In this document: positions 1,902 through 33,744 of the stretch, piece after piece | How positions within the stretch are numbered: position 1 is the first letter of the stretch | Layout: every line of letters starts with the position of its first letter | DNA from: a virus | IMG/VR virus record: IMGVR_UViG_3300036827_000358 | Location: 1-38,593 of that record | DNA: 38,593 nucleotides | Direction: 5' to 3' (one strand) | Position numbers and translations under genes: made by a program | Notes under the pieces: model-generated | Told to the model about the DNA's origin: nothing | Database searches by the model: none | What the model saw: only the letters and a program-made list of their open reading frames with translations

Positions 1902-2102
1902 ATGGAGGTTCAAGTGAAAGTGCATATCCGGGACTATCGGGACGTCAGCGGCGATCCTCCTGACAGCGTTTTGTATCGTTTCCATGCCGCCGAAAAGCTA
2001 CGCGAGCAACGGCGGCGACGCTGGCGGACGGCGAGGACCTTCGCCGCGTGGATCTGGTGCGGCCTGATCATAAGCTACCTCTGCTGGCTGGCCCTGAAAT
2101 GA
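1902..2102 (+). CDS. Small single-pass membrane protein
   Basis: 66 residues. It starts with ATG directly after the previous stop and ends in an ATGA overlap with the ATPase gene. A basic region (residues about 34-44, rich in arginine) precedes a hydrophobic segment (about 48-65, FAAWIWCGLIISYLCWLAL) that runs almost to the C-terminus. By the positive-inside rule the N-terminus would be cytoplasmic. No family is recognised. Its tight linkage to the ATPase may mean that it tethers something to the membrane, but that is only suggested by position. Confidence 0.65.
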   Translation: MEVQVKVHIRDYRDVSGDPPDSVLYRFHAAEKLREQRRRRWRTARTFAAWIWCGLIISYLCWLALK

Positions 2103-4000
2103 GCAAGATCGTCATTGGAAAATCCGGCAGCCGCAACGTGGCGCTCGACGTCGATGCGCTGCTGCGGACGCGCATGCTCGTCCAGGCGAATAGCGGTAAG
2201 GGAAAATCGTGGCTATTGCGCCGAATCGCCGAGCAGCTCTTCGGGAAAATCCAGGTGATCATCATCGATCCTGAGGGCGAATTCGCCACGCTGCGCGAGA
2301 AATTCGGCTACGTGCTGGTGGGCAAAGGCGGAGAGACGCCGGCGGATCCAAGATCGGCTGCTCTCGTAGCGCACAAACTCCTCGAGCTGCGCGCATCTGC
2401 CGTCTGCGATCTCTATGAGATGAAGCCCTTCGCGCGCCACGAATGGGTGCAGAAATTCTGCGATGCGCTGATCGATGCGCCGAAAAATCTCTGGCATCCA
2501 TGCGTGGTAATCGTGGATGAGGCTCACGGCTATGCTCCAGAGAAAGGATCTGGAGAATCCGCAGCTTCGGAAGCCATGATCGCGCTGGGCACGCGTGGCC
2601 GAAAACGTGGTTTCGCGCTCATCGCCGCAACTCAGAGACTGGGTAAATTACGAAAAGATCTCGCGGCCGAGCTGCTGAACGTGCTGATCGGCGGCACGTT
2701 CATCGATATTGATCGCAAGCGCGCGGCCGATGCGCTCGGCGTCTACGGCAAGGACCAGCATCAATTTTTCGACGAGATCAAAGTGATGGAGCGCGGCACG
2801 TTCTTCGCGCTCGGCCCGGCGATTTCGAACGAGCGGATTCTAGTGAAAGTCGGGCCAGTCGAAACCACGCACCCCGAGGCGGGCAGCGCGAGGCACGCTG
2901 CAGAGCCTCCGCCGGCGCCGGAAAAAGTGAAGGCCATGCTGCCGAAGCTGGCCGATCTGCCCAAAAGCGCGGAGGAAAAAGCCAAGACGGAGGCGGAGCT
3001 TCGCCGCGAGATCCGCGAGCTCAAGGCCAGCTTGCGCCAGCAGCCGAAGCCTCCGGTGCCGCAGAAGCAGGAAATTCGCGTGGCCGATCCGCGCGCGATC
3101 GAGCGAGCCATCGCCCCGCTGCGCGAGGCCCTGGAGGCTGCGATGAAGATACTCGTCAAAGTTCAGGTGCTGAATACCAAGGGCTCGAAGATCAGCGATG
3201 ACGAAATTCGGAAGGCCCTCGAGGCGACGGTCCGCGACGTGCGGCGACTGGCCGCGGGGAAAATAGATGCGCGAGCCAAGGAACTTGATCACCTGAGAGT
3301 CGAATGCGGACGCCTGATCAAGCGCATCGAGCAGATCTCTGGCAAGCAAAGCCGAATTTCCATTGACGCGACGGCCGCCATCAGCGGAGCGCAGCCGATA
3401 AAAGTTTCGGGCGAGGAAATCCACAGGAAAGGATCTGCTCTGGAAAGTAAAGATACGCAGGCGAAAAGCAGCCATCCTCGCCCGGAAGTTTCTCACGCGG
3501 AATCGAATGGCGATAGCGAGCTCACCGGCCCGCAGCGCCGCATCTTGAAAGCCATAGCGGAATTCGAGGCCATCGGACGGACACAGATCTCGAAAGCATG
3601 GATCGCAGCGCGCTCGGGCGCGAGCTACACATCCAGCAGCTACGGAAACAACCTGGGATTTCTGCGAAGTTCCGGATATATCGCCTATCCGGGTCCGGAC
3701 CAGGTTGCGCTCACCGATAAAGGGCGGGAATCGGCGGGCGCAATCGAGCCGCCCTCCAGTTCCGAGGAGATGCTGAAAAGCTGCCTCGATCTCCTCTCGT
3801 CACCGCAGCAAAAAATCCTGCAAACGGCTTACGAGCGATACCCGACTCCGCTGGCCAAGGACGAGCTCGCCGAGCTCGTGGGCGTGAGCGCAGGATCGAG
3901 CTCTTACGGCAACAATCTCGGAGCTCTGCGATCGGCCGGCATGATCGAATATTCGGGGCCGGGGCAAGTGAAAGCCGCGGATTGGTTGTTTCTCGAATGA
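2099..4000 (+). CDS. HerA/FtsK-type ATPase (DUF87-like) with duplicated winged-helix C-terminus
   Basis: 633 residues from the ATG at 2099, in an ATGA overlap with the previous stop. Residues 1-255 form the motor: Walker A at about 30-37 (ANSGKGKS), a following IIIDPEGEF strand, Walker B at 136-143 (VVIVDEAH, with D140 and E141), and ATQR at 177-180. This matches HerA/VirB4-like ATPases that pump DNA. Residues about 265-420 are linker and coiled coil. Residues about 475-633 hold two tandem winged-helix-like units, each ending in the near-identical SSYGNNLGxLRSxG, a Y, then GPxQV (about 513-536 and 601-624). The role is probably DNA translocation or remodelling in replication or recombination. 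It is the only large enzyme of the early region. Confidence 0.85.
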   Translation: MSKIVIGKSGSRNVALDVDALLRTRMLVQANSGKGKSWLLRRIAEQLFGKIQVIIIDPEGEFATLREKFGYVLVGKGGETPADPRSAALVAHKLLELRASAVCDLYEMKPFARHEWVQKFCDALIDAPKNLWHPCVVIVDEAHGYAPEKGSGESAASEAMIALGTRGRKRGFALIAATQRLGKLRKDLAAELLNVLIGGTFIDIDRKRAADALGVYGKDQHQFFDEIKVMERGTFFALGPAISNERILVKVGPVETTHPEAGSARHAAEPPPAPEKVKAMLPKLADLPKSAEEKAKTEAELRREIRELKASLRQQPKPPVPQKQEIRVADPRAIERAIAPLREALEAAMKILVKVQVLNTKGSKISDDEIRKALEATVRDVRRLAAGKIDARAKELDHLRVECGRLIKRIEQISGKQSRISIDATAAISGAQPIKVSGEEIHRKGSALESKDTQAKSSHPRPEVSHAESNGDSELTGPQRRILKAIAEFEAIGRTQISKAWIAARSGASYTSSSYGNNLGFLRSSGYIAYPGPDQVALTDKGRESAGAIEPPSSSEEMLKSCLDLLSSPQQKILQTAYERYPTPLAKDELAELVGVSAGSSSYGNNLGALRSAGMIEYSGPGQVKAADWLFLE

Positions 4001-7984: not shown

Positions 7985-8501
7985 AGGATCGGGACGCCGG
8001 CCGTTGCCGACGGCCGTCAAGAAGGTTCGAGGGAATCCCGGCAAACGCCCGCTCAACGAGAAAGAGCCAATCGCGCCGGCTGGCGATCCGGTGATGCCGC
8101 AGGATCTTCCAAGGGCCGCGCAACAGGAATGGAAGCGGATCCTTCCGGAGCTCCGCGAGATGCGCGTACTCAGCACCGTCGATCGTGCGGCGCTCGGAGC
8201 CTACTGCCACGCATATGCGCGCTGGTTCCAAGCGGAGCGCGAAATCAAGCTGCTCGGCATCGTGGTGCGCGAGCCGATTCTCGTCCACGGCATTGCCACC
8301 AGGTACGTTCGCTATAAAAAGAATCCGGCGGTCACGATCAGTGAAAAAGCGATGCAATTGATGAAAGCGTTCCTGGTGGAATTCGGCATGACGCCGAGTT
8401 CGCGCTCGCGTCTCTCAGTCTCCGATGACGGCAAAAACAAGCCGGTCGATCCGGCGGAGCGCTACTTCGCCCCCGAGCGACCCGGTCAGCGAATACAGTG
8501 A
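7977..8501 (+). CDS. Terminase small subunit, P27 family
   Basis: 174 residues from GTG. The N-terminus (RRPLPTAVKKVRGNPGKRPL) is the hallmark of the P27/terminase_4 family, followed by MPQDLPRAAQQEWKRI and a helical core (LSTVDRAALGAYCHAYARW) that recognises viral DNA and oligomerises. Further on, KNPAVTISEKAMQLMKAF and FGMTPSSRSRL are also family signatures. It binds packaging sites and regulates the large subunit. It overlaps the large terminase gene by 77 bases if the upstream ATG of that gene is used. Confidence 0.93.
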   Translation: MPRGSGRRPLPTAVKKVRGNPGKRPLNEKEPIAPAGDPVMPQDLPRAAQQEWKRILPELREMRVLSTVDRAALGAYCHAYARWFQAEREIKLLGIVVREPILVHGIATRYVRYKKNPAVTISEKAMQLMKAFLVEFGMTPSSRSRLSVSDDGKNKPVDPAERYFAPERPGQRIQ

Positions 8502-10206
8502 AGCGGCCACTTCCGGGAAAATCGTTGCCGGTCCGCTGGTCCGCCTGGCGTGCGAGCGCCATCTTCGCGATCTTCGCGATGGTCCTAAGCGCGGGCTTCG
8601 CTGGGACCCGATTGCCGCGAATCGCATCCTCGGATTCTTTTCCGATGTGCTCTGCCTGGCCGAAGGCGAATTCTCCGGCCAGCCTTTCCTCCTGCAGCCC
8701 TGGCAACAGTTCATTGTCGGATCGCTTTTTGGATGGAAGGGCGAGGACGGCTTCCGCCGCTTTCGTAACGCCTACGTTGAGGTCGGCAAAGGGAACGGCA
8801 AGAGCCCGATGGCTGCCGGCATCGGACTTTACATGCTGTGCGCCGATGGCGAGGCCTCCGCGGAGTGCTATTCGGCCGCGACCACTAAGGATCAGGCCAG
8901 TATCCTCTTCCGCGATGCGGCTCGCATGGTCGAAGCATCGCCGGCGCTTCGGTCGCGTATCGCCTCCTCGGGCGGGACCAAAGTTCAAAATCTTGCCCAC
9001 ATTTCCAGCGGATCCTTCTTTCGCCCGGTTTCATCCGAGCATCGCGGGCTCGACGGGAAGCGCGTCCACTTCGCGGCGATTGACGAGCTGCACGAACATC
9101 CGTCCTCTATCGTCGTCGACAAGATGCGCGCCGGAACTAAGGGGCGCCGCCAGGCCTTGGTCTTCCGTATCACCAATTCCGGTTTCGACCGCGCCACGGT
9201 CTGCTTCGCCGAGCACGAATACTCGCGAAAGCTTGTGGAGCGGCAGCGCGAGGACGACTCCTGGTTCTCCTACGTTTGCGGCCTGGACGAGGCCGATGAG
9301 TGGACCGACGAGCGCGTCTGGCCGAAAGCGAATCCAAATCTCGGCGTCTCGATCCCGGTCAAATATTTGCGCGAGCAGGTCACTGAAGCGCAGGGAATGC
9401 CTTCGAAGCAGAACATCGTCAAGCGGCTCAATTTCTGTGTGTGGACCAATCAGGAAAACGCGGCCATCCGCATCGAGGATTGGAACGCTTGCGCTTCTCC
9501 GGACGGCTCGGAAGTCACCGATCCGCGATCTCTCGTTGACCAGATGCGCGAGCAGCTCCGCGGCCGCCATTGTTTCCTCGGCCTGGACCTCTCATCCTCG
9601 AACGATCTCACGGCCGCGGTCAAAGTTTTCCCTCCCGAATCGGAGGGCCAGCCATATATCGCCCTCGCCGATTTCTGGCTTCCCGAGGAAAACATCAAGG
9701 CCCGAATGGCTGAGGCGCGCGCCCCTTATGACCTCTGGGTACGCGACGGCTGGATTCGCACCACGCCCGGAGACGTCATCGATTACAGATCGATCGAGGC
9801 CGTCATCCTGGAGGATTGCGAGTTTTTCGACGTCCGGGAGATCGCTTTCGATCCTTACCTGGCCACCAGCGTTTCCAACGATCTTCAGGCTGCCGGCATC
9901 GCCCCGGAGCGCCTGGTGAAATTTTTGCAGCGCTTCGAAATGTTCGCGCAGCCTACCAAAGAGCTGCTCGACGTGTTGATTCCGAAACGCATGTTCGCTC
10001 ATCTGGGCAATCCGGTCCTTTCTTTTAACGCCGGCAATCTAATCGTGCTCGAGAACAATAACGGCGATCGCCGGCCGGTGAAGAAGCGCGACTACGGCAA
10101 GGTGGACGGCCTCGTAGCGGCTCTGATTGGGTTGGGTCGCTGTATATCGAACGGCTCAGATGGAGCGTCGGCCTATACCGCGGAACGTGGAGCGCTCTTC
10201 GTATGA
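8425..10206 (+). CDS. terL: Terminase large subunit
   Basis: 593 residues. The ATPase part has WQQFIVGSLFGWK, then EVGKGNGKSPMAAG with Walker A at 121-127, and FAAIDELHEH with Walker B D220/E221. The nuclease part has GLDLSSSNDLTA (D388), IAFDPY (D476) and KVDGLVAAL (D561), consistent with a RuvC-like metal triad. This is the motor and headful or site-specific nuclease that fills the prohead. The family resembles HK97-type terminase_1 proteins. The ATG at 8425 lies inside the small subunit gene. The first conserved segment begins near residue 36, so the exact start is uncertain. It overlaps the portal start by 4 bases. Confidence 0.95.
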   Translation: MTAKTSRSIRRSATSPPSDPVSEYSEAATSGKIVAGPLVRLACERHLRDLRDGPKRGLRWDPIAANRILGFFSDVLCLAEGEFSGQPFLLQPWQQFIVGSLFGWKGEDGFRRFRNAYVEVGKGNGKSPMAAGIGLYMLCADGEASAECYSAATTKDQASILFRDAARMVEASPALRSRIASSGGTKVQNLAHISSGSFFRPVSSEHRGLDGKRVHFAAIDELHEHPSSIVVDKMRAGTKGRRQALVFRITNSGFDRATVCFAEHEYSRKLVERQREDDSWFSYVCGLDEADEWTDERVWPKANPNLGVSIPVKYLREQVTEAQGMPSKQNIVKRLNFCVWTNQENAAIRIEDWNACASPDGSEVTDPRSLVDQMREQLRGRHCFLGLDLSSSNDLTAAVKVFPPESEGQPYIALADFWLPEENIKARMAEARAPYDLWVRDGWIRTTPGDVIDYRSIEAVILEDCEFFDVREIAFDPYLATSVSNDLQAAGIAPERLVKFLQRFEMFAQPTKELLDVLIPKRMFAHLGNPVLSFNAGNLIVLENNNGDRRPVKKRDYGKVDGLVAALIGLGRCISNGSDGASAYTAERGALFV

Positions 10207-11954: not shown

Positions 11955-13057
11955 AATATGAGCATATTGTCGCCGAGGTTTTTCGCAAGCCATGGGCCAT
12001 CCTTCCAGAAAAGCTCCATGTGATCGCGCAGCTCGTAGCATTGCGAGCTTCGGGCGCCAGGCTCGGCGAAGCTGAAATCCGCGCGCGCCTGGAGGAGGCC
12101 GCCCTCGCGGCCGGCCCGCGGAACGCGCAGCAAAGCTTCGGCGCCGTCGCCCTGATCCCGATTCGGGGGGTTATCACCCGCCGCGCGAATTTGATGAGCC
12201 AATTTTCGGGCGGCACTTCGGTGGAAAAGCTGACGGCGCAATTTCGCTCCGCAGTGGCCGATTCGGGAGTGAAGGCCATCCTCTTCGATGTCGATAGCCC
12301 GGGCGGAACCGTGGAGGGCATTCCGGAGCTGGCCGAAGAGATCTACAAATCGCGATCGCAGAAAAAGAGCGTGGCCATCGCGAACGGAATAGCGGCGAGC
12401 GCGGCCTACTGGCTCGCCTCGGCCGCCGGCGAGATGGTGGTGATTCCCAGCGGCCTGGTCGGCTCGATCGGAGTGTTCACCGAGCATGAAGATTTCTCGA
12501 AAGCGCTGGAGCAGGCGGGCATAAAAACCACGCTGATTTTCGCGGGGAAATTCAAAGTGGATGGCAACGATATCGAGCCGCTGAGCGAAAGCGCCCGCAA
12601 AGATATGCAGGGCAAGGTGGACGCTTTTTACACGATGTTCGTGAAGAGCGTGGCGCGCGGCCGGCGAGTTTCTCAAGATGAAGTGCGCGCAGGATTCGGG
12701 CAAGGTCACATGGTTCTCGCCGCCGATGCCCTGAAGGAAGGAATGGTCGACCGCGTGGCCACCATGGACGAGACTCTCGCCCGCCTCGGAGTGAACGAAG
12801 CAAATCCGCCGCGAATGGCCGCGGCATCTGGCGACGCCGAAGTCCGCGCCGATATAGGTGACGACGATCCACTGGACGAACAAGATTGCGGCTGTATGTG
12901 CGGCAACTGCGCCGCCGAAAATTGCGAGGCCTGCAGCAACGAGGCCTGCGCCGACGGAGCGTGCGCGGCGAGCGGGTGTCCGATGCAGGAACAGGCTAAG
13001 GCCAAAGCCAGCGCACTCGATATCGAGCGGCGCCGGCGCGAGCTGGATCTGCTCTAG
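11951..13057 (+). CDS. Prohead protease, S49 (SppA/ClpP-like) family, with cysteine-rich tail
   Basis: 368 residues from the ATG at 11951 (ATGA overlap with the portal stop). An upstream in-frame extension inside the portal gene was rejected. The crotonase-like fold is shown by ALIPIRGVIT (about 67-76), LFDVDSPGGTVEG (111-123), NGIAASAAYW with the nucleophile S150, GSIGVFTEHED (171-181) and FAGKFKVDG with the general-base lysine at 200 or 202. It trims scaffold and capsid proteins in the prohead. Residues 313-343 carry nine cysteines (CGCMCGNC, CEAC, then spaced Cys). This is unusual for a phage protease and might bind metal. A charged helix ends the protein. Confidence 0.92.
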   Translation: MKYEHIVAEVFRKPWAILPEKLHVIAQLVALRASGARLGEAEIRARLEEAALAAGPRNAQQSFGAVALIPIRGVITRRANLMSQFSGGTSVEKLTAQFRSAVADSGVKAILFDVDSPGGTVEGIPELAEEIYKSRSQKKSVAIANGIAASAAYWLASAAGEMVVIPSGLVGSIGVFTEHEDFSKALEQAGIKTTLIFAGKFKVDGNDIEPLSESARKDMQGKVDAFYTMFVKSVARGRRVSQDEVRAGFGQGHMVLAADALKEGMVDRVATMDETLARLGVNEANPPRMAAASGDAEVRADIGDDDPLDEQDCGCMCGNCAAENCEACSNEACADGACAASGCPMQEQAKAKASALDIERRRRELDLL

Positions 13058-13058
13058 G

Positions 13059-13100
13059 ACAGGGCTCCCAGGTCGACGGTTAGTCGAGCCTGGGAGATCA
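13059..13100 (-). repeat. Conserved hairpin element, copy 1 (before major capsid gene)
   Basis: CTCCCAGGTCGAC (13065-13077) pairs with GTCGAGCCTGGGAG (13083-13096) with one bulged G, giving 13 pairs around a 5-base loop. The 42 bases are the near-exact reverse complement of 20560-20602: 20 and 18 identical bases flank a changed loop. It begins two bases after the protease stop and about 160 bases before the capsid ATG. No T run follows, so it is not an intrinsic terminator. RNA stabilisation, processing or partial attenuation are possible roles. The strand given is relative to copy 2. Confidence 0.8.
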
Positions 13101-13218
13101 GACTTCCGGCCGCCGACGCGGCCAGTTCCAAAAACAGCAAAGAACGCCGCCACGGTAAGCGTCCGACGACGCCGAGGAGCGGAGGCCTGCGCTGAACGCT
13201 AAACCAGGAGAACGTGAA

Positions 13219-14520
13219 ATGTCGAACATTAAGGCGTTACGGCAACGCGAAGCGGAGTCGAAGAAAAAGCTCCGCGCGATGCTGGATAAAGCCGCGGCGG
13301 AAAACCGCGGCCTGAACAAAGACGAACAGGATGAGTACGACAAAGAGCTCGAGGTCTACGCAGTGAATAGCCGCACGCTCGAGCGCGAAGGTCAGCTCCT
13401 CGAAATGGAACGTCGCACCGATCCGGTCGACGATCAGAACGAACGAGCGGCCGCGGCGGCTGGAGCTCCGGTCCAGAAGCGCGGTTTTGAAACCCTCGGC
13501 GAGCAATTGAAGGCCGTGGTGAAGTATGAGAAGAGCAAGGGGTCCGTCCGCGATCCGCGGCTTTTCGCGGGACCGGCCGGGCTGGATGAAATCGCTCCCT
13601 CAGAGGGCGGGTTCCTGGTGCAGAAGGATTTCTCGGCCGAGCTATTCAAGCGGATGTATGAGACCGGGCAAATCGTCAGCCAGTGCCGGAGGATCCCGAT
13701 CTCGGGGAATTCCAACGGCATCAAGATCAACGCGATCGATGAAGATTCGCGGGCAGACGGATCCCGGTGGGGCGGCGTCGTGGCCTACTGGATGAATGAA
13801 GCGGGCTCGCTCACAGCGAGCAAGCCGAAGTTCCGCCAAATCCAAATGCAGCTCCAGAAGCTCGGAGCCATCTGTTACGCCACCGATGAGATGCTGGAAG
13901 ATGCGGCCGCTCTCGAATCGGTGATCCAGGAAGCCTTCCCCGAAGAGATGGTGTTCAAAGTCGAGGACGCTATCCTGAATGGAACGGGCGCAGGCCAACT
14001 GCTCGGGATCTTGAATAGCGGCGCCGTGATCCAGCAGGCCAAGGATTCCGGCGACTCCGGAGCGGTCCTCACCACCAAGGACGTTTTGGCGATGTGGAAC
14101 CGCCTCTGGGTTCCCAGCCGCAAGAACGCCGTGTGGCTTGCGGACGTCAGCGTCGAACCTCAGCTCTACCAATTGGTTTTGGGAGCTCCGTCCCTGGGCC
14201 AGATCCTGCTCTATACGCCGCCCGGCAATAACGGAAACAAGACCGCGATGCTGATGGGCCGGCCCGTGATCTTCCACGAGCACGGCGCCGTCCTCGGTAC
14301 TCCCGGAGACATCGTGCTGGCCGATCTGAGCCAGTACCTGATGATCGACAAGAACGGCATCCGCCAGGATTACTCGATCCACGTGAACTTCCTCACCGAC
14401 GAAGGCGTATTCAGATTTATTTATAGATGCGATGGCCAAACGTGGTGGAAAAAACCTCTTACGCCGAAAAGTGGTGGATCCACGCTTTCTCCGTTCATCA
14501 GCCTGGCAACACGCTCATAG
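13219..14520 (+). CDS. Major capsid protein, HK97 fold
   Basis: 433 residues with AGGAGA ahead of the ATG. Residues 1-110 are a charged coiled-coil delta region that serves as built-in scaffold and is normally removed by the protease. The shell domain starts near the PSEGGFLV motif (about 130-138). E-loop and P-domain signatures follow: WMNEAGSLTASKPKFRQI, KLGAICYATDEMLEDA, then the A-domain VPSRKNAVWLAD, GRPVIFHEH and GDIVLADLSQYLMIDK. Cleavage probably lies between about residues 100 and 125, but I cannot fix the site. It is flanked by hairpins on both sides, which fits very high expression. Confidence 0.95.
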   Translation: MSNIKALRQREAESKKKLRAMLDKAAAENRGLNKDEQDEYDKELEVYAVNSRTLEREGQLLEMERRTDPVDDQNERAAAAAGAPVQKRGFETLGEQLKAVVKYEKSKGSVRDPRLFAGPAGLDEIAPSEGGFLVQKDFSAELFKRMYETGQIVSQCRRIPISGNSNGIKINAIDEDSRADGSRWGGVVAYWMNEAGSLTASKPKFRQIQMQLQKLGAICYATDEMLEDAAALESVIQEAFPEEMVFKVEDAILNGTGAGQLLGILNSGAVIQQAKDSGDSGAVLTTKDVLAMWNRLWVPSRKNAVWLADVSVEPQLYQLVLGAPSLGQILLYTPPGNNGNKTAMLMGRPVIFHEHGAVLGTPGDIVLADLSQYLMIDKNGIRQDYSIHVNFLTDEGVFRFIYRCDGQTWWKKPLTPKSGGSTLSPFISLATRS

Positions 14521-14534
14521 TTTCACGACGGTCC

Positions 14535-14563
14535 CGAGGAGCCTCCCTAAATGAGGGTCCTCG
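14535..14563 (+). promoter_or_regulatory. Hairpin between major capsid and next gene
   Basis: CGAGGA (14535-14540) pairs with TCCTCG (14558-14563), and inside it CCCT pairs with AGGG across a 5-base loop with a 4-base bulge. There is no T run. An mRNA processing or stability hairpin after the capsid gene is the likeliest role. Confidence 0.45.
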
Positions 14564-14590
14564 CAAAAATCTTAGAGAAGGAGAACCCAA

Positions 14591-15061
14591 ATGAAGGGAT
14601 TTGTACTCGCAGAAGAAGGACACGTCGTGCAGGTCACCGCTCCCGTGGATATCACGGGCGGCGCCACCGGCCAGGCGTTTTCGATGAAGAAGTATCAGCA
14701 CGCCAGCATCCTGGTTCTCGTCGGCGTCTCGGCCGCGGCCTGGACGAAAATCATCGTGAACCAGTGTGTCGATCACACCGGGGCGACACCTGTGGCGATT
14801 CCGTTCAGCATCTACAAGGCGGAAACCGCCGCGGGCGACGTGTTGGGAGCTCGTACGGCCGTCGCTGCCGCCGGCTACACGCCTTCGGCCAATGACGGGA
14901 TTTTCTACGTCATCGAGCTGGATGCCAATGAGCTGGCCGATGGATCGCCGTACGTCCAGGTGCAGCTCACCAACGGGTCGAATAGCGTGATCGCCGCGAT
15001 CGTCGCCGTATTGAGCGGCGCGCGCTTCGCCGAAACGCAAAGCCCGACGGAAATCACCTAA
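14591..15061 (+). CDS. Probable head-associated (decoration-like) protein
   Basis: 156 residues with GAAGGAGA ahead of the ATG. The sequence is beta-rich, small and non-charged (ASILVLVGVSAAAWTKIIV, then a strand pair around VAIPFSIYKAET, and FYVIELDANELADG), which suits a beta-sandwich. It follows the major capsid gene directly and ends at a strong terminator, so it is probably a structural protein made in quantity, such as a head decoration. Several phages encode an anonymous protein of this size here. No family name is certain. Confidence 0.7.
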   Translation: MKGFVLAEEGHVVQVTAPVDITGGATGQAFSMKKYQHASILVLVGVSAAAWTKIIVNQCVDHTGATPVAIPFSIYKAETAAGDVLGARTAVAAAGYTPSANDGIFYVIELDANELADGSPYVQVQLTNGSNSVIAAIVAVLSGARFAETQSPTEIT

Positions 15062-15068
15062 CCCCCAC

Positions 15069-15102
15069 GGGCGGCGAGGCAACTCGCCGCCCTCGTCTTT
15101 TT
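15069..15102 (+). terminator. Intrinsic terminator
   Basis: GGGCGGCGAG (15069-15078) pairs perfectly with CTCGCCGCCC (15083-15092) around a GCAA tetraloop, followed by TCGTCTTTTT. Ten GC-rich pairs plus a T tract make a textbook rho-independent terminator. It sits eight bases after the previous stop and about 17 bases before the next ATG, so capsid transcripts would largely end here. Confidence 0.85.
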
Positions 15103-15118
15103 CCGAAAGGATCCGAAG

Positions 15119-15343
15119 ATGAAGATTCACTTGCTGGAGGACGTCAAGCATCGCGGGCACCGGGGCGACATTGTCGACGTTCCCGATGAAGTCGCCATGG
15201 ATTTGGAAAAGCATGGTCACGCAGCTTTTGTGCCCGACGAGCCCGAAGCGGCTGTCGACCAGGGCGAACCGGAAGCATCGGGGGATCCCCAGGACGAGGA
15301 GCATTCCCGTCATCCCAAAGCGAAAGCCAAAAAAGCGAAGTAA
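15119..15343 (+). CDS. Small head/neck-region protein with L9-like N-terminus
   Basis: 74 residues with AAAGGA upstream. The first 38 residues (MKIHLLEDVKHRG, then GDIVDVPDEVAMDL) match the pattern of short phage proteins resembling the N-terminal RNA-binding fold of ribosomal protein L9 (LLEDV, G-x-GD-V-V-DV). The C-terminal half is acidic, then lysine-rich (KAKAKKAK), and looks disordered. Such proteins commonly sit between capsid and connector genes in siphoviruses. Function is not established. Confidence 0.7.
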   Translation: MKIHLLEDVKHRGHRGDIVDVPDEVAMDLEKHGHAAFVPDEPEAAVDQGEPEASGDPQDEEHSRHPKAKAKKAK

Positions 15344-15386
15344 CCCCAGTTCCGGGAGGCTCGCCTAGCTCTCTCGGATGCAAGGC

Positions 15387-15419
15387 GGAAGCGGGCTTTC
15401 TGAGAGGGGGCCCGCTTCC
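15387..15419 (+). terminator. Strong hairpin, weak terminator
   Basis: GGAAGCGGGC (15387-15396) pairs perfectly with GCCCGCTTCC (15410-15419) around a 13-base loop and is followed by an AT-rich stretch (TAAAATATTTAG) rather than a T run. A second small palindrome, GGGAAAAT then ATTTTCCC (15433-15449), follows. Together they form a structured spacer in the gap 15344-15469. Confidence 0.55.
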
Positions 15420-15469
15420 TAAAATATTTAGAGGGAAAATCATTTTCCCCCATTGACTCGGAGGCCATT

Positions 15470-15670
15470 TTGTTCGTGCGACTCAAGACCGGGCGGGACG
15501 CCGGCCAAATCGTGGAGATGAAATTCGAGGATGCGAAAGCCATGCTCCTCGATGGCCGCGCCGATCCGGCGTATTCGGATGCTTCCGAGGTAACCGCTCC
15601 GATCGCGGAAGAGATTCCGGCGCCTCAAAAGCACGCTGCAAATCCGCCGCGGCGAAAGAAAGCGAGATAG
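15470..15670 (+). CDS. Small hypothetical protein
   Basis: 66 residues from a TTG with GGAGG at 15460-15464. A GTG two codons later is an alternative. MFVRLKTGRDAGQIVEM and FEDAKAMLLDGRA resemble a compact beta-alpha unit found in short phage head proteins. The tail is proline- and lysine-rich (RRKKAR). It lies between capsid and accessory genes, and function is unknown. Confidence 0.65.
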   Translation: MFVRLKTGRDAGQIVEMKFEDAKAMLLDGRADPAYSDASEVTAPIAEEIPAPQKHAANPPRRKKAR

Positions 15671-15674
15671 TTCA

Positions 15675-15983
15675 ATGAAGGGCATCGGCACAACCTGTTC
15701 GGCTCCCGCGCAAACCGCGGTGAGCAATTCGGCCTCGAAGGTGCTTTCCGCCAATGGTTCGCGTGCGGAGCTGATTGTCGTGAATACCGGCACCGTTCCC
15801 GTGTTTCTCGGCTTCGGCCCTGCCCAGCCCAGTGCCACGGCCTATCACGTGGCGCTGGCGCCGTGTTCGAGCGCGAACGATGGCACCGGGGGAAGCTTCG
15901 TCTGCGATTGGTGGGAAGGCGATGTCTATGCGATCGCGCCCGCGGGCGGGGGAACCATCTGCATCGGGGAGCTGAGCGAATGA
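15675..15983 (+). CDS. Small beta-sandwich-like protein
   Basis: 102 residues. Strands dominate: SRAELIVVNTGTVPVFLGFG at about 29-48, ATAYHVALAPCSS, then a short loop and DVYAIAPAGGGTICIGE. The pattern of N-TG-x-V-x-V-x-G followed by glycine-rich turns is common in small phage virion proteins that decorate heads or tails. It overlaps the start of the signal-peptide protein by 4 bases, which couples their translation. It has four cysteines, which is unusual for a cytoplasmic phage protein. Confidence 0.6.
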   Translation: MKGIGTTCSAPAQTAVSNSASKVLSANGSRAELIVVNTGTVPVFLGFGPAQPSATAYHVALAPCSSANDGTGGSFVCDWWEGDVYAIAPAGGGTICIGELSE

Positions 15984-17740
15984 AAAAATACGCGCTGATC
16001 GGCAGTCTCGCGTTTTTGCTCGCAGCCGCCGCCGCGTTCGGGCAAGGCCCTTCGCGGATTCAGAATGGGGGCAAGAGCGGCGGACTGAGTTCGACTTACG
16101 CGCTGCCCTTTGGAACCGATACGGGCACGGCAAACGACTTTTCCGTTAATCTCAGCCCTGCCCTCCCAGCTATCGCAGCCACTCCCACTTTAGTCAACGA
16201 TTGCGGGGATACGGCCGCGCGAAGCAGTTGCTCTTATTCGCAGCATTTTAAGGGCGACATCATCATCGTGTTTGTATCGACGAACACATCAACCGTTCCA
16301 GTAATCGGATTGACGAATACCTTGGGCTATTCCTGGCTGCCCGTCAGCGGCGGGTGTTCGGCGGCGGGAGTCAGTTGGACACAGATGTTTTACGCTTACG
16401 TCCCGGCTACCACTCCTGCTTCGGATACGTTCACCGCAACCAGCTCAACGGGGGCGGGAGTGTTGCAAATGTCCGCCGCCGAATATTCCGGGGTTGCCCA
16501 GACCAGCCCCATCGATGGCACGGGAGGCTGCGCTTCAGGGTCAGGCGCGGGCACATTCACGACAGCATCATTCACCGGAACCGTTGGCGATCTAGCGGTT
16601 GCCGGAGGCGGCTCACTTTTCGGCCAACCGACGATTGGATCAGGATTCACCGCTGCCGTGGCCGGCGGTACCAATGGTCTGCTGGAGCAGAAAATCGCGG
16701 CCGGTACCAGCATTACGGCGTCGATGGTGAATCCCTCCGGAACCATCGTCATCCAGACCGTCGCCATCAAAGCCGGAACCATCAATCAATTCGGCCAGAG
16801 TTTCACGTTCACCGCCGCCCATTCTAATACTGGGCTGTCAAGCATGACGGTCAACGGAGTGCCGAGCATGCTTCGCCTGGAAATCTATCCGAGCGCTTCT
16901 ATGACGGGCGGAGAAATCGTTGCCGGCAACACGTATCAGCTCACCAACGACGGTGCGGAGTGGTTGCTCGCGGGTGGTTTCACTCCCGGGGTTTCGCCTC
17001 CGACCGGAGGGGCGCTGAACCTAGCTGGATCGTATCTGATTGGTGCGGCGGCTGGTTCAACTTCTCCAAATCTTACATTGCTATCATCTCCGGGGAATTC
17101 GGCCGTTGATTCCAGAAATATGCTGTCGTTTGTTTGCGGGCAAAACGTGGGAGGAACCGGATGCGGCGGTCTTTCCGCATCATTTGGGATGGACCACGAC
17201 AGCGTGTTTATATTTTCGGGAACTCTCGCGATGTATGCGTTCGTCCGGCCGCTAGAGATTTTTGGTGCAACTTCGGTGTTTAGCCAAAGTGCATCGCCCG
17301 ACTTTAGAGTCCAGCCGAATCAGACGCGGGGCGCCACTGACAACGCGATTCTAGTGCAGCGTCCCACGGTGGGAAGCGATGGAGCGACGATTTTTCAGAT
17401 CGATTCCTTGACCGGCAAGATCGAAGATACCGCCACGCATTGTGCGTCCTCCGCTTCCCCAGCCGTCTGCGGTTCGGCGTGGACTGGCTTCATCGTCGTG
17501 CCCGCAGGAATGAGCATTCAGACGGTGAACACGACGGCGCTAGACGCAAACAGCAAGATAATTTTCCAAGTGGACGACACGATTGGTACGCCACTCGGAG
17601 TCAGTTGCGATACGACGCCTGCCGATTTATTCGGCGGCTTTGCGGTCACGGGTCGCACGCCAGGAACAAGTTTCACGTTCACTTCGGCTATAACGCCGAG
17701 CACGAATCCTCTGTGCATCAGCTATCACCTAGAGGACTGA
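15980..17740 (+). CDS. Secreted, fibre-like protein with signal peptide and inserted beta domain
   Basis: 586 residues from the ATG at 15980 (ATGA overlap, GGGGA upstream). A classic signal peptide heads it: MKKYAL, a hydrophobic core to about residue 19 and AFGQ as a likely cleavage region. Residues about 45-69 and 268-334 match the tail-fibre module of the 31528 gene (DTGTANxxxVxLSP, AHxNTGxSxxxVNG, TGGExxAG). Between them lies an inserted roughly 195-residue beta domain (GDIIIVFVSTN, SAAEYSGV, GDLAVAGGG). The rest is beta-rich with cysteine pairs. It may be exported to the host surface, for adhesion or superinfection exclusion, rather than being a virion part. It lies between head and connector genes, a common accessory slot. 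Confidence 0.75.
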   Translation: MKKYALIGSLAFLLAAAAAFGQGPSRIQNGGKSGGLSSTYALPFGTDTGTANDFSVNLSPALPAIAATPTLVNDCGDTAARSSCSYSQHFKGDIIIVFVSTNTSTVPVIGLTNTLGYSWLPVSGGCSAAGVSWTQMFYAYVPATTPASDTFTATSSTGAGVLQMSAAEYSGVAQTSPIDGTGGCASGSGAGTFTTASFTGTVGDLAVAGGGSLFGQPTIGSGFTAAVAGGTNGLLEQKIAAGTSITASMVNPSGTIVIQTVAIKAGTINQFGQSFTFTAAHSNTGLSSMTVNGVPSMLRLEIYPSASMTGGEIVAGNTYQLTNDGAEWLLAGGFTPGVSPPTGGALNLAGSYLIGAAAGSTSPNLTLLSSPGNSAVDSRNMLSFVCGQNVGGTGCGGLSASFGMDHDSVFIFSGTLAMYAFVRPLEIFGATSVFSQSASPDFRVQPNQTRGATDNAILVQRPTVGSDGATIFQIDSLTGKIEDTATHCASSASPAVCGSAWTGFIVVPAGMSIQTVNTTALDANSKIIFQVDDTIGTPLGVSCDTTPADLFGGFAVTGRTPGTSFTFTSAITPSTNPLCISYHLED

Positions 17741-17744
17741 GCGC

Positions 17745-17987
17745 ATGACGAAATTCCTCCGCGAAGTGTTCAGCGAAGAGGGGCAGGGCAGCTTCTCGCG
17801 CGTCGCTTCGGGCCTGCACGTCGTCGCCGGCCTGGCCTGGGTATCGCATTTTGTCTGGCACACGCACGTGCTGCCGGATGCCGCCACGATGGCGGGGCTT
17901 TCCGCTTTCGTGGTCGCTCCCTATGGCGCGAACAAATTCGCGAACGCATTCGGCGCGCGCGGCGGGAACCAGGGCGCCTCACAATGA
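17745..17987 (+). CDS. Small two-helix membrane protein (holin-like)
   Basis: 80 residues with AGAGGA eight bases before the ATG. Hydrophobic segments are about 19-38 and 47-63, with polar ends. The pattern SRVASGLHV, then LPDAATMAG and PYGANKF, is familiar from short phage membrane proteins encoded just before the connector gene in GC-rich hosts and often labelled holin-like or unknown. It overlaps the next gene by 4 bases. A holin role is plausible but not supported by a neighbouring lysin. Confidence 0.65.
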   Translation: MTKFLREVFSEEGQGSFSRVASGLHVVAGLAWVSHFVWHTHVLPDAATMAGLSAFVVAPYGANKFANAFGARGGNQGASQ

Positions 17988-18868
17988 GCTCGATCCAGGT
18001 GCAGACTCCTCCAGCGGCCGAGCCGGTGGATCTCGTCACGCTCAAGAACCATTTGCGCGTGACGATCACGAACGACGACGCGCTGATCAAGCTCTACCTG
18101 CAATCCGCGCGCGAGCTGGTGGAAAGCGAATCGGGGCGCAGCCTGGTGAACAAGCTCTATCGCCAGTCCCACGATCGCTTCCCGCGGCTGCACGATTGTG
18201 GCGATTTCGGCACCGGCTATTTCTACCAGGCTCCGCGTTACGCCCGCGGCCATCATTACGACGATCGTCAAGTGATCAAGCTTTTGCGCTGTCCGCTGGT
18301 GAGCGTCGAGAAGATCACCTACATCGACCTCAACGGCGCGGTGCAGACGCTGCTTCCCACCCCGGCGCTCTGGCAGCCGGATACCGAATACGAGCTCGGC
18401 GATCAATTCCAGGATCTGAACGGGAATTTGCAGGAAGTAACCGCCGTGGCCGAATCCGGTGAGGATGGAAGCTCCTCCAGCGGATCCACTGCTCCCGCAT
18501 GGGGAAACACTGTGGGCGCGATCACGAGCGCAGACGGCGACCTTACCGAGAAATGCATCGCCGTTCCGGCGCCGGCGGGAGATTTCCTGGTCGATTCGGA
18601 TTCCGAGCCGCCCCGCATTTACCCGAACTACGGCGCGTTCTGGCCGGCCACGCTGCGCGTGCCAAACGCGGTCCAGATTTTCCTCACCGCGGGCTACGGT
18701 GACGATGCTTCCTCCGCGCCGGCCACTCTGAAGGTCGCGATCATGCAATCCACCGGCGTGATGTATCAAAACCGCGAAGCCATGACGGCGGAGCAGCTCA
18801 GAGCCCTCGACTGGTACGACCGATTGATCTGGAGCGAGCGCGTGATCGATTACGCGCCGACCCGATAA
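17984..18868 (+). CDS. Head-tail connector (gp6-like) with an inserted domain
   Basis: 294 residues. The connector fold is seen at both ends: VDLVTLKNHLRVTITNDDALIK (as VTLKNHLRV and DDALIKLYL, about 18-40), LVESESGRSL, CPLVSVEKITY, then YPNYGAFWPATL, AVQIFLTAGYGD and VAIMQSTGVMY at the end. Usual family members are about 190-220 residues. Here residues about 129-195 form an extra insert (WQPDTEYELGD, DLNGNLQEVTAV, APAWGN). It closely resembles a stretch in the fibre-like protein encoded at 33968 (about residues 218-283 there). The connector joins portal and tail completion proteins. Confidence 0.88.
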   Translation: MSSIQVQTPPAAEPVDLVTLKNHLRVTITNDDALIKLYLQSARELVESESGRSLVNKLYRQSHDRFPRLHDCGDFGTGYFYQAPRYARGHHYDDRQVIKLLRCPLVSVEKITYIDLNGAVQTLLPTPALWQPDTEYELGDQFQDLNGNLQEVTAVAESGEDGSSSSGSTAPAWGNTVGAITSADGDLTEKCIAVPAPAGDFLVDSDSEPPRIYPNYGAFWPATLRVPNAVQIFLTAGYGDDASSAPATLKVAIMQSTGVMYQNREAMTAEQLRALDWYDRLIWSERVIDYAPTR

Positions 18869-18896: not shown

Positions 18897-19268
18897 ATGG
18901 CACGAACCAACATCGCAAGCCAGATTCCCGTGGGGCCGTATCCCGCGGGCGGTGCGGTCGGGGCAGCCGCGCTCGACATCACCATGACGGCGGCCGACAC
19001 CAGCATGCACAACGAGGCCATTTTTAGCGGCCGGGATCTGCTGATCGTCCAGAACACGGATAGCGCGTCCCACAATCTCACGATCACTTCAGCGCCGGAC
19101 GAGCATGGCCGCTCGACGGATATCGCTACCTACGCGGTGGGCGCGGGAAAGATTTCCGTTTTCAGCTTCCGCAACGGTGCGGCCGGCTGGCAGCAGGCCG
19201 ATGGGCACATTTATTTCCAGGGGGACAGCGCGATGCTTTTCTTCGCCGTCCTCGCTTCGACCACCTAG
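18897..19268 (+). CDS. Small virion-associated protein, beta-rich
   Basis: 123 residues with AAAGGAGAAAG upstream, one of the best ribosome sites in the window, which suggests high expression. Strands and glycine turns dominate (LLIVQNTDSASHNLTITSA, then VGAGKISVFSF). The pattern resembles small decoration or neck proteins encoded between connector and adaptor genes. No family is certain. Confidence 0.65.
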   Translation: MARTNIASQIPVGPYPAGGAVGAAALDITMTAADTSMHNEAIFSGRDLLIVQNTDSASHNLTITSAPDEHGRSTDIATYAVGAGKISVFSFRNGAAGWQQADGHIYFQGDSAMLFFAVLASTT

Positions 19269-27561: not shown

Positions 27562-28008
27562 ATGGCATCGCGAACCGATATCGTCTCCGCCGCGCGCGGC
27601 TGGCTCGGCACTCCCTTTCGCCATCAGGGCCGCGTGAAGGGCCTGGGGCTTGATTGCGTGGGCCTGCCGATCATGGTGGCGCACGAGCTGGGCATCACGG
27701 CGAAAGATGGCCATGCGGTAGCGCCGATGGAATATTGCGATTATCCCGAGCAGCCCGTCGACGGCCGCGTGCTGCGGATCTGCCAGGAGCTGATGATCGA
27801 GACTTCGAAGCCCGCGCAGCCCGGCGATGTGCTCTGCTTTCGCGTCCCTTCGGTGCCCTGCCACGTTGCGATCGTCAGCGATTTATCGATCGCGTATCTC
27901 GGGATCATTCACGTGAATCGCTTCATCGGCCGCGTGGTGGAGCATCGCCTGGATCAAAAGTGGCGGCGCCGCATCGCGGCAGGATTCAACTTCGCCGGCG
28001 TTCTCTAA
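27562..28008 (+). CDS. NlpC/P60-type tail-tip peptidase
   Basis: 148 residues. The ATG has only an A-rich leader. RTDIVSAARGWLGTPFRHQG (4-23), then the catalytic GLDCVGL with C32, PGDVLCF (about 88-93), and PCHVAIV with H101, followed by GIIHVNR (H117) as a third candidate residue. This is the Cys/His peptidase used by tail tips to cut cell-wall peptides during DNA entry, as in the Rhodobacter-type GTA set. It lies between DUF2163 and the tip gene. It is the only clear wall-cutting enzyme in the window. Confidence 0.92.
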   Translation: MASRTDIVSAARGWLGTPFRHQGRVKGLGLDCVGLPIMVAHELGITAKDGHAVAPMEYCDYPEQPVDGRVLRICQELMIETSKPAQPGDVLCFRVPSVPCHVAIVSDLSIAYLGIIHVNRFIGRVVEHRLDQKWRRRIAAGFNFAGVL

Positions 28009-28020
28009 AAGAAAACCCAA

Positions 28021-31000
28021 ATGGCAATGATCGTGATTGGCGCGGTGGCCGTGGCCGCCGAAGTCAGCATGACCATCTACCAGCTTCTGAACCGCCCGAA
28101 GGCCAGGCCTCCGGTGCAGGACCTGCAAATTGCGAATGCCACCGAGGGCGCGCCGATCCCCTTCGGCTACGGCCTCGGAAGGATTGCCGGCAATCTGATC
28201 TGGACGAAGGGTCTGCGCTATCAGATCAAAAAAATTGGCGGCTCGATTTTCGGCGGCGGCGTGAAGACGTACATCTACTACGCCGATTTCGCCTTTGCAT
28301 TTTGCGAGGGGCCGGCGGAAGTTCTGCGGCTTTGGGGCGATTCAAAGCTGATCTGGACCTCGGCGACCGCGATCGCCGAATTCCCGCCCGAGGATTTCCC
28401 CGAATGGGATTCCACGGTCCTCTACAACATCGGCGATATCGTCACCTACCAAAATCTGGTCTGGCAATCGACGAACGAAAGCACCAACGTGGCGCCGGGC
28501 ACTCTCGATCCGGTCACGGGCCTAGCCGACTGGGTGCAGATGGGATCCACGCCCGAGTGGCTTTTCACGCAGCAATACAATCCCGGCGACGTGGTGACCT
28601 TCGAGGGTCAAATTTACGTCGCTCTTATCGCCAACATCGACGTGCCGCCCAGCTCGAGCCATGGCCCCAATGGCGATTGGAACGAGCTGAGCAACTACTA
28701 TCCGACGCCCACGAGTTATCCGGGCGACGAGAACCAGCTTCCCGATCCAACCATCCAGGGGAACGAGGGCGTTTCTTCCACTCCCGCGTTTCGCGGGCTC
28801 TGCTACACCGTCTTCGAGAATTTTCCGCTCGCGAATTTCGGAAACCGCATACCGTCGATCCGCGCGGAAGTGCGCATTAAGAATGCTCCCGCGAAGCAAA
28901 TAATCGACCTGATCGCGCAACCGCCGACCAGCCCGCTCGAAAATCCGCTTACCGAAGGTTTTCCGCGGAACAACGTGGCCGGCGATTACTTGATCGCCTT
29001 CGCGCGCACGCGGCCTGACAGCCAGCCGGCCGGAGGGTGGGATCCGGGCGCTATTTCCGATAGCGCCGGAAACACGTGGAACCTGGTGGGCTCGGGAAAT
29101 TCGGCATACGCCTGGTGGGCCCGCGCGGTGGGCGCCGATTCGGATCTCGTAACCTTCGCGAGTACCGGAGGCACGGGATTTCCCTACGATGGCGATCTCT
29201 ATTTGATTTCGCTCGGAACCATCTACCAGGAGTGGGCGGATCCGCATCAATTCGCCGGCCTCTACGCGGTGGGCACTATCGTTACCTACAAGAATCATTT
29301 GTATCAGGCCCTCACCAATATCGCGGGCTCGGGGAATCAGGGAGCTCCGGCGAGCTGGGTCCGATCGTCCACAATTCCGCCCGACGCGCCCAGCCTTTGG
29401 AATCCGATCCTCGATAATTTCGACGCCACTTTCTACAGCGGGTTTGCGAGCGGCTCCTCGGCCGGATCCGGCACGGTCACCGCCGGGCCGTACAGCGTCA
29501 CGTTTAGCACCACGGCTACTGCCTGGACCGCATATTTCTTCGTTCTGGTGGGCCCCGATCCGAGCGCGCCGCCGCGCAAAATCCTAATCATCAATTATGA
29601 CGACGGACTGCTTCGCGCCGTCACCATGCCCGACGGCTGGACGAAGGCTTTCCCGGATTACCAGGCTGGCGGATCGATCGTCTTCACGGAAAGCGACGAC
29701 GTGCTTCTTGCGGACGTGGTTGCGGACGTCACCCTGCGCACCGGTCTCGATTCGGGCGACGTCGATACGTCGCTTTTGACCGCGGCCAATGTGCAGCCGA
29801 GCAACGTGGTGGAAGGCTATATCGTCTCGCGGCCCACGCGCGCGGCCGAGATCATGAAGGTTTTGATGCAGGCCTATTTTTTCGATGGCTGCGAATCTTC
29901 CGGCCTGTTGCGCTTCGTCCCGCGCGGCTTGCCCGCGGCGCTCACGATCGCCGAGGGCGAGCTCGGGCTCATCGCCGACAAGGCGGAAGTGAAGCCGGAA
30001 GAAATCGGCCAGGAGCTCGATCTCCCTCAGTCCGTGCAAATCCAATTCAACGATCTCGGCCTGGCCTTCCAGCAGGGGAAGCAGCAGAAGGAACGGTCGA
30101 CGCGGGCGATTCAGACGAAGCAGGAAACAATCGTGCAGATGCCGATGACGATGGACGACGTGTGGGCGCGCCAGGTAGCCGAAAAAATACTGTGGACCTC
30201 CTGGATCGAGCGGCTTTCCTACGCTTTCAATCTGTGGCGCGCGTACTATTTGCTCCTCGATCCCACCGATGTGATCGATTTCGATTATGACAGCCAGGTG
30301 ATCACGGCGCGGATTACCGAAAACACGATCGGGCAGGGCCTCACATCGGCGCAAAAAGCGCTGCGCGAAAGCGCCTCCGCCTACACGGCATCAGACGCCC
30401 AGGGCGGCGGCAACCTGGGATTCACTCCCTCGCCGGTGCCCATTCTGGCGCCCACGCTCTTGATGCTTTTTGATATTCCGCTGCTGCGCGATTCCGATTC
30501 CAACCCCGGCAACACGGGGTATTACGCCGCGCTGACTTCGGCCCTTCCGGGCTGGCCGGGCGCGGAACTCGACCGCTCGCTCGATGACTCCGAATTTGAT
30601 CCCGTCGATAGCTCGGGTTCTCCGGTGGATTATGGCTTCACGACGAACGCGCTCGCGAATCCCGCCTCGCCTTTCGATTGGGACAACGTCAACACGCTGA
30701 CGGTGAAAATGTCGCAGGGAGGCCTGGCGAGCGATACCGCGGCGAACGTCCTGGCCGGCTCGAACATGCTGCTCATCGGCAACGATACGAATGGCTATGA
30801 AGTGGTTCAGTTCACCACCGCGGTCCTGAATATGGACGGCACCTACACGCTCAGCGGACTTCTGCGCGGCCGGCGCGGCACCGAATGGATGTGCGGATTC
30901 TGGGGCGATTTCTCGAACGGGCTTATGACGCACGCAATCGGCGATCGCGTGATCGTGGCCGATCCCGCCGAGCTCTTGCACGAAAAGGACAATCTCTCGG

Positions 31001-31494: not shown

Positions 31495-31513
31495 CGCGAT
31501 ATGGAATCGCGCT
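31493..31513 (+). promoter_or_regulatory. Hairpin between tip and fibre genes
   Basis: AGCGCGAT (31493-31500) pairs perfectly with ATCGCGCT (31506-31513) across a 5-base loop. It overlaps the last two bases of the tip stop codon. An A-rich stretch follows, not T, so termination is unlikely on this strand. Confidence 0.5.
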
Positions 31514-31527
31514 CCTAAAAAAGACTC

Positions 31528-33744
31528 ATGCCTGTCACTCCCGGCGCATCTCCCACCGAGGTCAATCTCAACGCCACCGTTCCAGCCGCGCCCGCCGGCG
31601 AAACCAACGTGGAATGGCAGGCCGGCGATCCCTATCCCGATCCCAACTATCCCGAGAAATTCGTGCGCGACACTTCGGCCTACATGCCGAACATGGTGGG
31701 CGACTCGGGATCCGGAGGCGCGAGCGGCGCCGTTCCCGCTCCGGCCGCGGGCGATGCAGCCGCGGGGAAATTCCTTAAAGCGGACGGCACCTGGGAAGTC
31801 GCCGTCACGCCCGCCGAAATTCAGGATGAATCTTTCGTCTACGCCGCCGATACGGGCACGGCGAATGCTTACGCGGTCACACTCTCACCGGCGCCCACGC
31901 TCGTAGCCGGCAGCCTGGTGGTGGCGAAAATCGCCCATGCGAATACTGGCGCATCCACGCTGGCCGTGAACGGCGGCTCACCGGTTTCAATCCTAAAGGA
32001 ATCGTCGGGATCGCTCGTGGCGCTCACGGGCGGCGAGCTGAACGCCGGCCAGATTGTTTTCTTCGTTTACGACGGAACGAATTTCCAGCTCATCGGCGTA
32101 AGCGCGGGCGGGGGCGGCAGCTCACCACTCACTACTAAGGGCGATCTCTATACCCATGACTCCTCAGCGGACGCGCGCCTCGCCGTCGGATCGAATGGCC
32201 AGGTGCTCACCGCGGATTCGACGCAAACAACGGGATTGAAATGGGCGGCCGCGGCTTCGGGCTTCACGGCCGGCGGCGATCTTTCGGGATCCTCGAGCTC
32301 GCAGGAAGTGATCGGGATTCTGAATAAGCTCATCGACGCGAGCGCGCCCGCCGACGGGCAAATCATCCAGTACAGCTCGACGACGGGGAAGTGGGAGCTG
32401 CTGGTCGACCGTCCGATTTTTCCGGTGAGCGCCATTGCCGGCATGCCCAGCGCCGGCCAGCTCGTCTGCATCTATACGGCCGCGGCGTCGATGACGTTTC
32501 CGGCGAATTTCGCTTCGCCGAATTCCTACGGATCGCTCGGCGCGAATCCCACCGGAACCGCAACATACGCGATTTATAAAAACGGCACGCTGGTCGGCAA
32601 TGTGGCGATTTCCACGAGCGGCGTTTTCACCTTCACCACTGTCGGCGGAGCAAGCTTCAGCCTCAATGCCGGCGATCGGCTCACGATTGTCGCGCCGGGC
32701 GTGCAGGACGCGACGCTGGCGGACGTGGGCATTACGCTAGTGGGCACGCGCTCGGCCACGGTTCCTTCGACCGCGGTTCCTCCGATCTTCACATGGCGCG
32801 GGACTTATTCTGGAGCCACGGCCTATCAGCCGTTTGACGTCGTAGCGTTCACGGTTTCGAGCAAAGTGCAGAGCTACGTTTGCATTCTCGCGACCACCGG
32901 GAACGATCCATCGAACGCAACCTACTGGAGTTTGCTCGCGCAAGCGGGAGCGGACGGCGCCGCCGGCGGCGTGCAGATAGCGAGTGATCTGGGCGGAACG
33001 AATCTTGCGCCCACGGTGATCTCGACGCACCTTTCGAGTCCGCTTCCGGTGGCACAAGGCGGAAGCGGCGCGGCTTCGCTTGCGGCTCACGGAGTCGTAA
33101 TCGGCGAGGGGACCAGTGCTGTAGCTGTGAGCGGCGCCGGAACCGCCGGCCAGGTTCTGACTAGCAACGGCGCGAGCGCCGATCCGACCTTCCAGAACGC
33201 AGCAGGCGGAACGCCTTCGGGCACGCCAATCATCGCGGGGAATCGTTTCACCGCGGTGAATGCCAACTGGAACAGTTTCTCGATCTGGGCGCAGATGGCC
33301 GGAGACCGGCTCTCCTCGCTCCCCACGAGCTGGAAGGTCACTTTCGGATTTGTAGGCGGCACGGGCGCGAGCATCAACAAAGCCTACGTGCTGCGCACCG
33401 CGCGCGGGAAATTGGCCGTGATCGATTCGACGCAGATTCTTTTCAGCGGTTCCGGCTCGCACGTGGGAGCCTTCGGATTCACCGCCGCGATCGCCACTCC
33501 CGCCTTCGTGGTTTCCGACGCGATTAGCCTGGCGCTGGACAATCAACATGATTACTACCTGATGGCCTACTTCAATACGGATGGAACGTACAACACGACC
33601 CTAGCGATGGGACAGACCCTCGTTCCAGGCAGTGGATTGCCCGGGGCGTACGTTGCCGGCGATCAGACCGGAGTCAGCACGGTTAGCTGGCCGGGAAATC
33701 TAACCAACGGGGTCTCCGCGATCTGGGGAGCCGAGGTGGCCTGA
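31528..33744 (+). CDS. Tail fibre protein
   Basis: 738 residues. The N-terminus (about 1-95) is proline/glycine-rich. Residues 104-192 are a fibre module ([37 protein letters not shown]) that also occurs, split, in the signal-peptide protein. [21 protein letters not shown] and GQVLTADS (201-231) are the standard fibre repeat, repeated near 505-550 with [10 protein letters not shown]-x-x-FDVV module lies at about 421-470. The C-terminal region is beta-rich and probably forms the trimer head. Receptor binding is its likely role. It overlaps the next gene by one base. Confidence 0.85.

Follow-up and report, generated by a model that had tools for sequence, protein, structure and literature searches.

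A 38.6-kb siphophage record in IMG/VR (the window, analysed over its full 38,593 nucleotides) carries, between its capsid and connector genes, a gene for a 586-residue protein in which a predicted signal peptide precedes a tail-fibre module that is split by an inserted domain. We consider it probable that this gene is a moron encoding an exported, disulfide-bonded, fibre-derived protein of the cell surface or medium, with an exchangeable payload. The ORF (15980..17740, + strand; identified from the ORF call, module matches and Shine–Dalgarno sequence) runs from an ATG at 15980 to a stop at 17738–17740. A ribosome-binding site, GGGGAG, precedes the start, and the ATG overlaps the stop of the upstream gene (ATGA). 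The whole protein, used as a query, found no relative in IMG/VR or INPHARED and belongs to no Pfam or PHROG family. Around it the window encodes terminase, portal, protease, capsid, connector, tail, hub, fibre and integrase-like genes, and the host of this soil phage is probably a member of the Acidobacteriota. Elsewhere in the window, a 650-residue ORF (2048–4000) gives weak terminase-large-subunit/FtsK-like matches, the real terminase lying separately at 8425–10206; the hub/tail-tip protein (28021–31494) contains CBM_5_12 carbohydrate-binding repeats (PF02839) in three stretches; and an internal start in the ORF at 36244–37002 yields a signal/anchor-like N-terminus (MTLRAKLEIAAVLLALAGAGFGF), possibly that of a spanin-like lysis protein.

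The protein begins MKKYALIGSLAFLLAAAAAFGQGPSR, and its N-terminus (MKKYALIGSLAFLLAAAAAFG/QGPSR) displays an n-region with two lysines, an unbroken hydrophobic core and an A-F-G cleavage-like site. A home-made heuristic, which looks for this three-region arrangement and cleavage-like site as expected for Sec export, was positive on the protein and made no false calls among 331 genes of recognised cytoplasmic or virion function or 1310 shuffled N-termini, bearing out the textbook signal peptide described in an earlier note on this DNA. Among 75 other proteins with the same fibre module and a complete N-terminus, the heuristic found no signal peptide. The first cysteine of the protein is residue 75, which does not fit a lipobox of the Llp/Ltp lipoprotein type, and neither a lipobox cysteine nor a C-terminal membrane segment is present to act as a membrane anchor. 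The signal peptide (to approximately residue 21) and a linker, QGPSRIQNGGKSG, together form a leader (15980..16083, +; GC 62.5%) that is near-identical in a sister phage, L003, and whose pattern was matched in no viral contigs other than these two.

Behind the leader lies a DTGTAN tail-fibre module in two halves, at approximately residues 41–67 (16100..16180, +; placed by profile matches and AlphaFold2) and 271–333 (16790..16978, +; placed by profile matches, AlphaFold2 and Foldseek). The residues proposed earlier as halves of one fibre module, 45–69 and 268–334, are therefore right to within a few positions. The phage's own tail fibre (31528..33744, +; 738 residues; phrog_4900) contains the module unbroken at residues ~96–194, and has no signal peptide. 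Used as a query, this module gave two collinear matches in the 586-residue protein (E 3.7e-5). A profile built from five modules of reference phages, with the window's fibre left out, places model positions 10–35 on residues 43–68 and 38–93 on residues 275–331, so that the halves abut in the model and sit ~206 residues apart in the protein. When joined, they score 45.1 bits (E 1.5e-11) against this profile, for which the maximum of ~1,950 shuffles was 9.7, and 63.6 bits (E 3e-17) against a profile of 80 metagenomic modules (shuffle maximum 12.1); the suggested alignment with the fibre module thus holds from a model of other phages alone. The module is present whole and in order, phrog_4900 positions 246–323 being matched at E 0.0056, but an insert of ~203 residues and the signal peptide set the protein apart from the contiguous, signal-peptide-free form of that family. 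The module is widespread among tail fibres (295 phage records with a phrog_4900-type module), and none of 80 other DTGTAN proteins has an insert within it, two odd cases being severed by contig ends.

AlphaFold2, supplied with 55 module rows, folded the halves as one domain with block-mean pLDDT of ~76–97 in both and below 50 in the insert. This is supporting evidence rather than independent proof because the alignment itself sets the halves together and so favours it; the entire protein modelled without an alignment gave a pLDDT of 33 and no usable fold. The best PDB match of the folded halves in Foldseek was the Pa193 tail fibre/baseplate (9b45), accompanied by 18 viral models at E ≤ 1e-3, several of which are named tail or tail-fibre proteins. 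These matches may span the second half alone, since their columns include gaps, and the case for the junction does not rest on them. The module is ~36% identical to that of the phage's own fibre, no closer than to those of other phages, and third-position GC content (GC3) is 58% in the part of the gene behind the leader versus 73% in the fibre, so the module is not a recent copy from that fibre. The module is a piece of the fibre shaft or connector, and receptor binding is not known for it, which counts against a receptor-binding role of the protein.

The inserted domain (approximately residues 66/68–270; 16181..16789, +; delimited by the module boundaries and AlphaFold2) is rich in Ser, Thr and Gly and contains Cys 75, 84, 126 and 184. 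The earlier note had offered, as one alternative, that a host adhesin and a phage fibre share ancestry. This idea found no support, single-sequence searches (which are weak) having recovered no credible relative of the insert in 149 Acidobacteriota genomes or 72,556 plasmids. Two Acidobacteriota matches at E ~0.003 were rejected, the better one spanning genes in other frames and the other containing four stops, and a resemblance to standalone beta domains of the loci L009, L007 and L014 was not significant (hhalign 3% probability, BLASTP E 0.11). The C-terminal domain (17520..17740, +), with Cys 543 and 579, matches K1-lyase_C (PF24146), a C-terminal domain of phage tail spikes, at E 0.0019; at 19 bits against a curated cut-off of 27 this is sub-threshold and a lead only.

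The closest comparison is provided by L003 (IMGVR_UViG_3300036801_000149), which is ~92–98% identical to the window over most of the aligned region and 100% identical over 27778–31532, with a more diverged terminase region. Its contig ends exactly at the start of the window's fibre (31528–31532), as if the fibre varies in the population. Both phages share a three-gene block, yet only the first ~34–36 codons of the signal-peptide gene are common to them; beyond the leader the two passengers are unrelated, and identity resumes at the next gene, with flanks of 92–94%. The L003 passenger is Cys-rich and by eye resembles a beta-helical or tailspike-like protein (DDTTALQAAF), although searches of families, phages and PDB chains gave no match. 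GC3 is 58% in the window's passenger (16084..17740, +; GC 57%) and 45% in that of L003, versus 73–75% in the major capsid protein, portal, fibre and tape genes; unlike both passengers, the leader is not foreign in composition. The mature constant part amounts to ~15 residues, which is not enough for a docking domain, and the signal peptide therefore appears to be the part that recombination has kept. The gap between capsid and connector genes measures 2.9 kb in the window and L003 alone, and 0.25–0.8 kb in 27 other loci, which lack the 2.3-kb insert carrying the 586-residue gene. Besides this gene, the block contains a gene for a 102-residue beta protein with 4 Cys and no signal peptide (15675..15983, +; weak phrog_30212 match) and one for an 80-residue small membrane-type protein, holin-like by eye (17745..17987, +), whose 45% identical relative in L007 adjoins signal/beta proteins.

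The mature protein has 10 cysteines in neighbouring pairs (75/84, 126/184, 386/395, 488/497 and 543/579), three of them spaced by nine residues, and none lies within its fibre module. Even cysteine counts are the usual mark of exported disulfide-bonded proteins, and they were found in 19 of 24 Cys-containing signal-peptide proteins versus 112 of 256 other genes (p = 4e-4, an optimistic value as the counts take in related sequences). Disulfides in the exported protein are indirectly supported by these patterns. The idea in the earlier note of a captured fibre domain redirected to the envelope gains support, at the level of sequence, from the module, the signal peptide, the even cysteine count and the leader that the two sister phages share despite their different passengers.

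A signal peptide on a gene of the head/neck cluster had been called unusual; the signal peptide stands, but its rarity in this position has to be qualified, as the arrangement recurs in this phage clade. A capsid alignment was used to fetch 85 loci; five came from genomes, one of these five being an Acidobacteria MAG. Since the capsid model also matched in 6 of 396 Acidobacteriota genomes, Acidobacteriota are the likely, rather than proven, host group, and at least part of this soil clade's hosts probably belong there. By the heuristic, signal-peptide genes occur between the capsid and tape measure genes in 11 of 22 close relatives (~8 of 19 after removal of copies and one doubtful call) and in 5 of 35 distant ones. 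Calls on 14591-type genes (MKKYQHAS...) proved to be internal starts and were discarded, and that at L035 11604 is probably false. One connector-slot family of ~115 residues, tail/connector-type in character, is found with a signal peptide in L009, L015/L029/L030, L022, L024, L038 and L044 and without one in ten other loci; the window's own member (18897..19268, +) lacks it, while relatives in the same slot carry one. In the non-redundant set, 2 Cys are present in 5 of 7 exported-type members versus none of 9 unexported ones, which have 0 or 1 (Fisher p 0.005, kinship ignored). We dropped the notion of several independent gains of the signal peptide in this family, because the tree permits a single change of state.

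Several further loci display related arrangements. In L038 the C-terminus (957–1060) of a 1063-residue signal-peptide protein (14829–18020) is a connector-slot domain, and a second copy with a signal peptide lies at 13693–14118. A non-Acidobacteriota example, L019 (12876–16373; Desulfarculales MAG DBMI01000042.1), has three tandem signal-peptide ORFs after the capsid gene, the first with a classical tail-fibre motif (VSQADAEAGTST) and the last beta-helical by eye. Upstream of terminase, L031, L033, L035 and L036 encode signal-peptide proteins with a common start, QLQQSGGPGS, and even cysteine counts, three of which contain the repeat VTQPVSGTFWQATQPVSG; the searched part of these proteins had no match among INPHARED phages. 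In L014 an 834-residue ORF (12361–14865) has hydrophobic stretches at its N-terminus, as an anchor, and close to its C-terminus, together with repeated beta domains. As a tentative generalisation, in which we place somewhat less than even confidence, this soil clade may repeatedly add signal peptides to virion-type beta proteins, yielding exported, disulfide-bonded mimics of fibres or decoration proteins that are made beside the virion and have swappable payloads behind a constant leader.

The signal peptide, the retention of the leader with a new passenger, the slot proteins with and without signal peptides and the even cysteine counts together argue that export is real: the leader, cysteines and clade pattern all point to it, and export of the 586-residue protein is well supported in silico. 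We propose that a moron inserted between the capsid and head–tail-connector genes would be expressed late, and that the host Sec system would export its product and cleave the leader, with disulfides stabilising the protein in the periplasm or the extracellular space. The ectodomain would consist of phage fibre parts, namely a DTGTAN module with a second beta-rich domain in its loop and a tail-spike-like C-terminus, and would be exchanged by recombination behind the constant leader, as in L003. At the host surface the protein would most likely bind glycans or receptors, and the bound protein could prevent other virions or newly made progeny of the phage from attaching to the infected cell and its debris. 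The missing anchor counts against retention at the surface.

The main rival holds that this is a normal component of the virion, either a fibre or a capsid-decoration protein, and that its hydrophobic N-terminus plays no part in export and serves virion attachment or assembly. The location among head and connector genes would suit such a protein equally well, as would the fibre module and spike-like C-terminus, and a constant N-terminus with an exchangeable distal part is the usual pattern of tail fibres; homologous connector-slot proteins, moreover, occur without signal peptides. Tail fibres, however, normally join the virion inside the cytoplasm, and the N-terminus here possesses all three signal-peptide regions and a cleavage-like site, the like of which was seen in none of the 331 phage genes or 75 DTGTAN proteins. 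The even, paired cysteines also contrast with the 2 Cys in the 738 residues of the real fibre, and we judge a virion role improbable. A variant in which the protein is first exported and binds to virions later, during lysis or afterwards, supplying progeny with extra glycan-binding fibres, would account for signal peptide and virion-type modules together, and the connector-slot domain ending the 1063-residue L038 protein could be a virion-docking one. No virion-binding domain was recognised in the 586-residue protein, however, and no precedent for such decoration in tailed phages was found in open PMC papers, making this late attachment more doubtful still.

A lysogenic-conversion adhesin or matrix protein would instead benefit the host, through attachment or biofilm formation, and not the infection cycle. 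The integrase-like gene (37685–38248), the variable passengers of foreign composition and the precedent of PblB (PMC4508584) are all consistent with this, but the 586-residue gene lies on the strand of the late structural genes and is tightly packed among them, which points to expression during lytic growth, and we regard the adhesin as rather unlikely. A surface-acting binding protein is overall the most likely reading. Within it we favour decoy action or superinfection exclusion, followed by the lysogenic adhesin, with the decoy role taken by itself being conceivable but held with limited confidence. Blocking the adsorption of competing phages, as envisaged in the earlier note, is a possible role of this kind. 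If fibre parts are indeed sent to the host surface, this would represent a new control of adsorption, superinfection or host attachment in an almost unstudied group of soil phages, and the export idea lends itself to direct testing through the slot protein that exists both with and without a signal peptide.

The nearest relatives by sequence are the fibres of PB1-like Pseudomonas phages and other DTGTAN fibres (phrog_4900; Pa193 9b45; RR1-A; phiOH2), whose module can be aligned over its full length with residues 43–69 plus 271–332 but which differ, in the 75 and 80 examples checked, in lacking the signal peptide and the insert, respectively. PblB of Streptococcus prophages is a tail-fibre-like protein with a presumed role at the cell surface and, in its pneumococcal version, a putative signal peptide, and it is tied to tail morphogenesis (PMC4508584); compared through the literature alone, it differs from the window gene, which is a separate moron with an exchangeable payload. 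T5 Llp and Ltp are phage-encoded superinfection-exclusion lipoproteins acting at the envelope (PMC9586334, PMC3952083), Llp blocking both the receptor and adsorption to debris (PMC9586334), but they are small lipoproteins not derived from fibres, whereas the window protein is 586 residues long and has no lipobox. Finally, the swap of passengers behind one leader in near-identical phages resembles tail fibres and tailspikes with constant N-termini and exchanged distal domains, except that here the constant part is a signal peptide and not a virion-docking domain.
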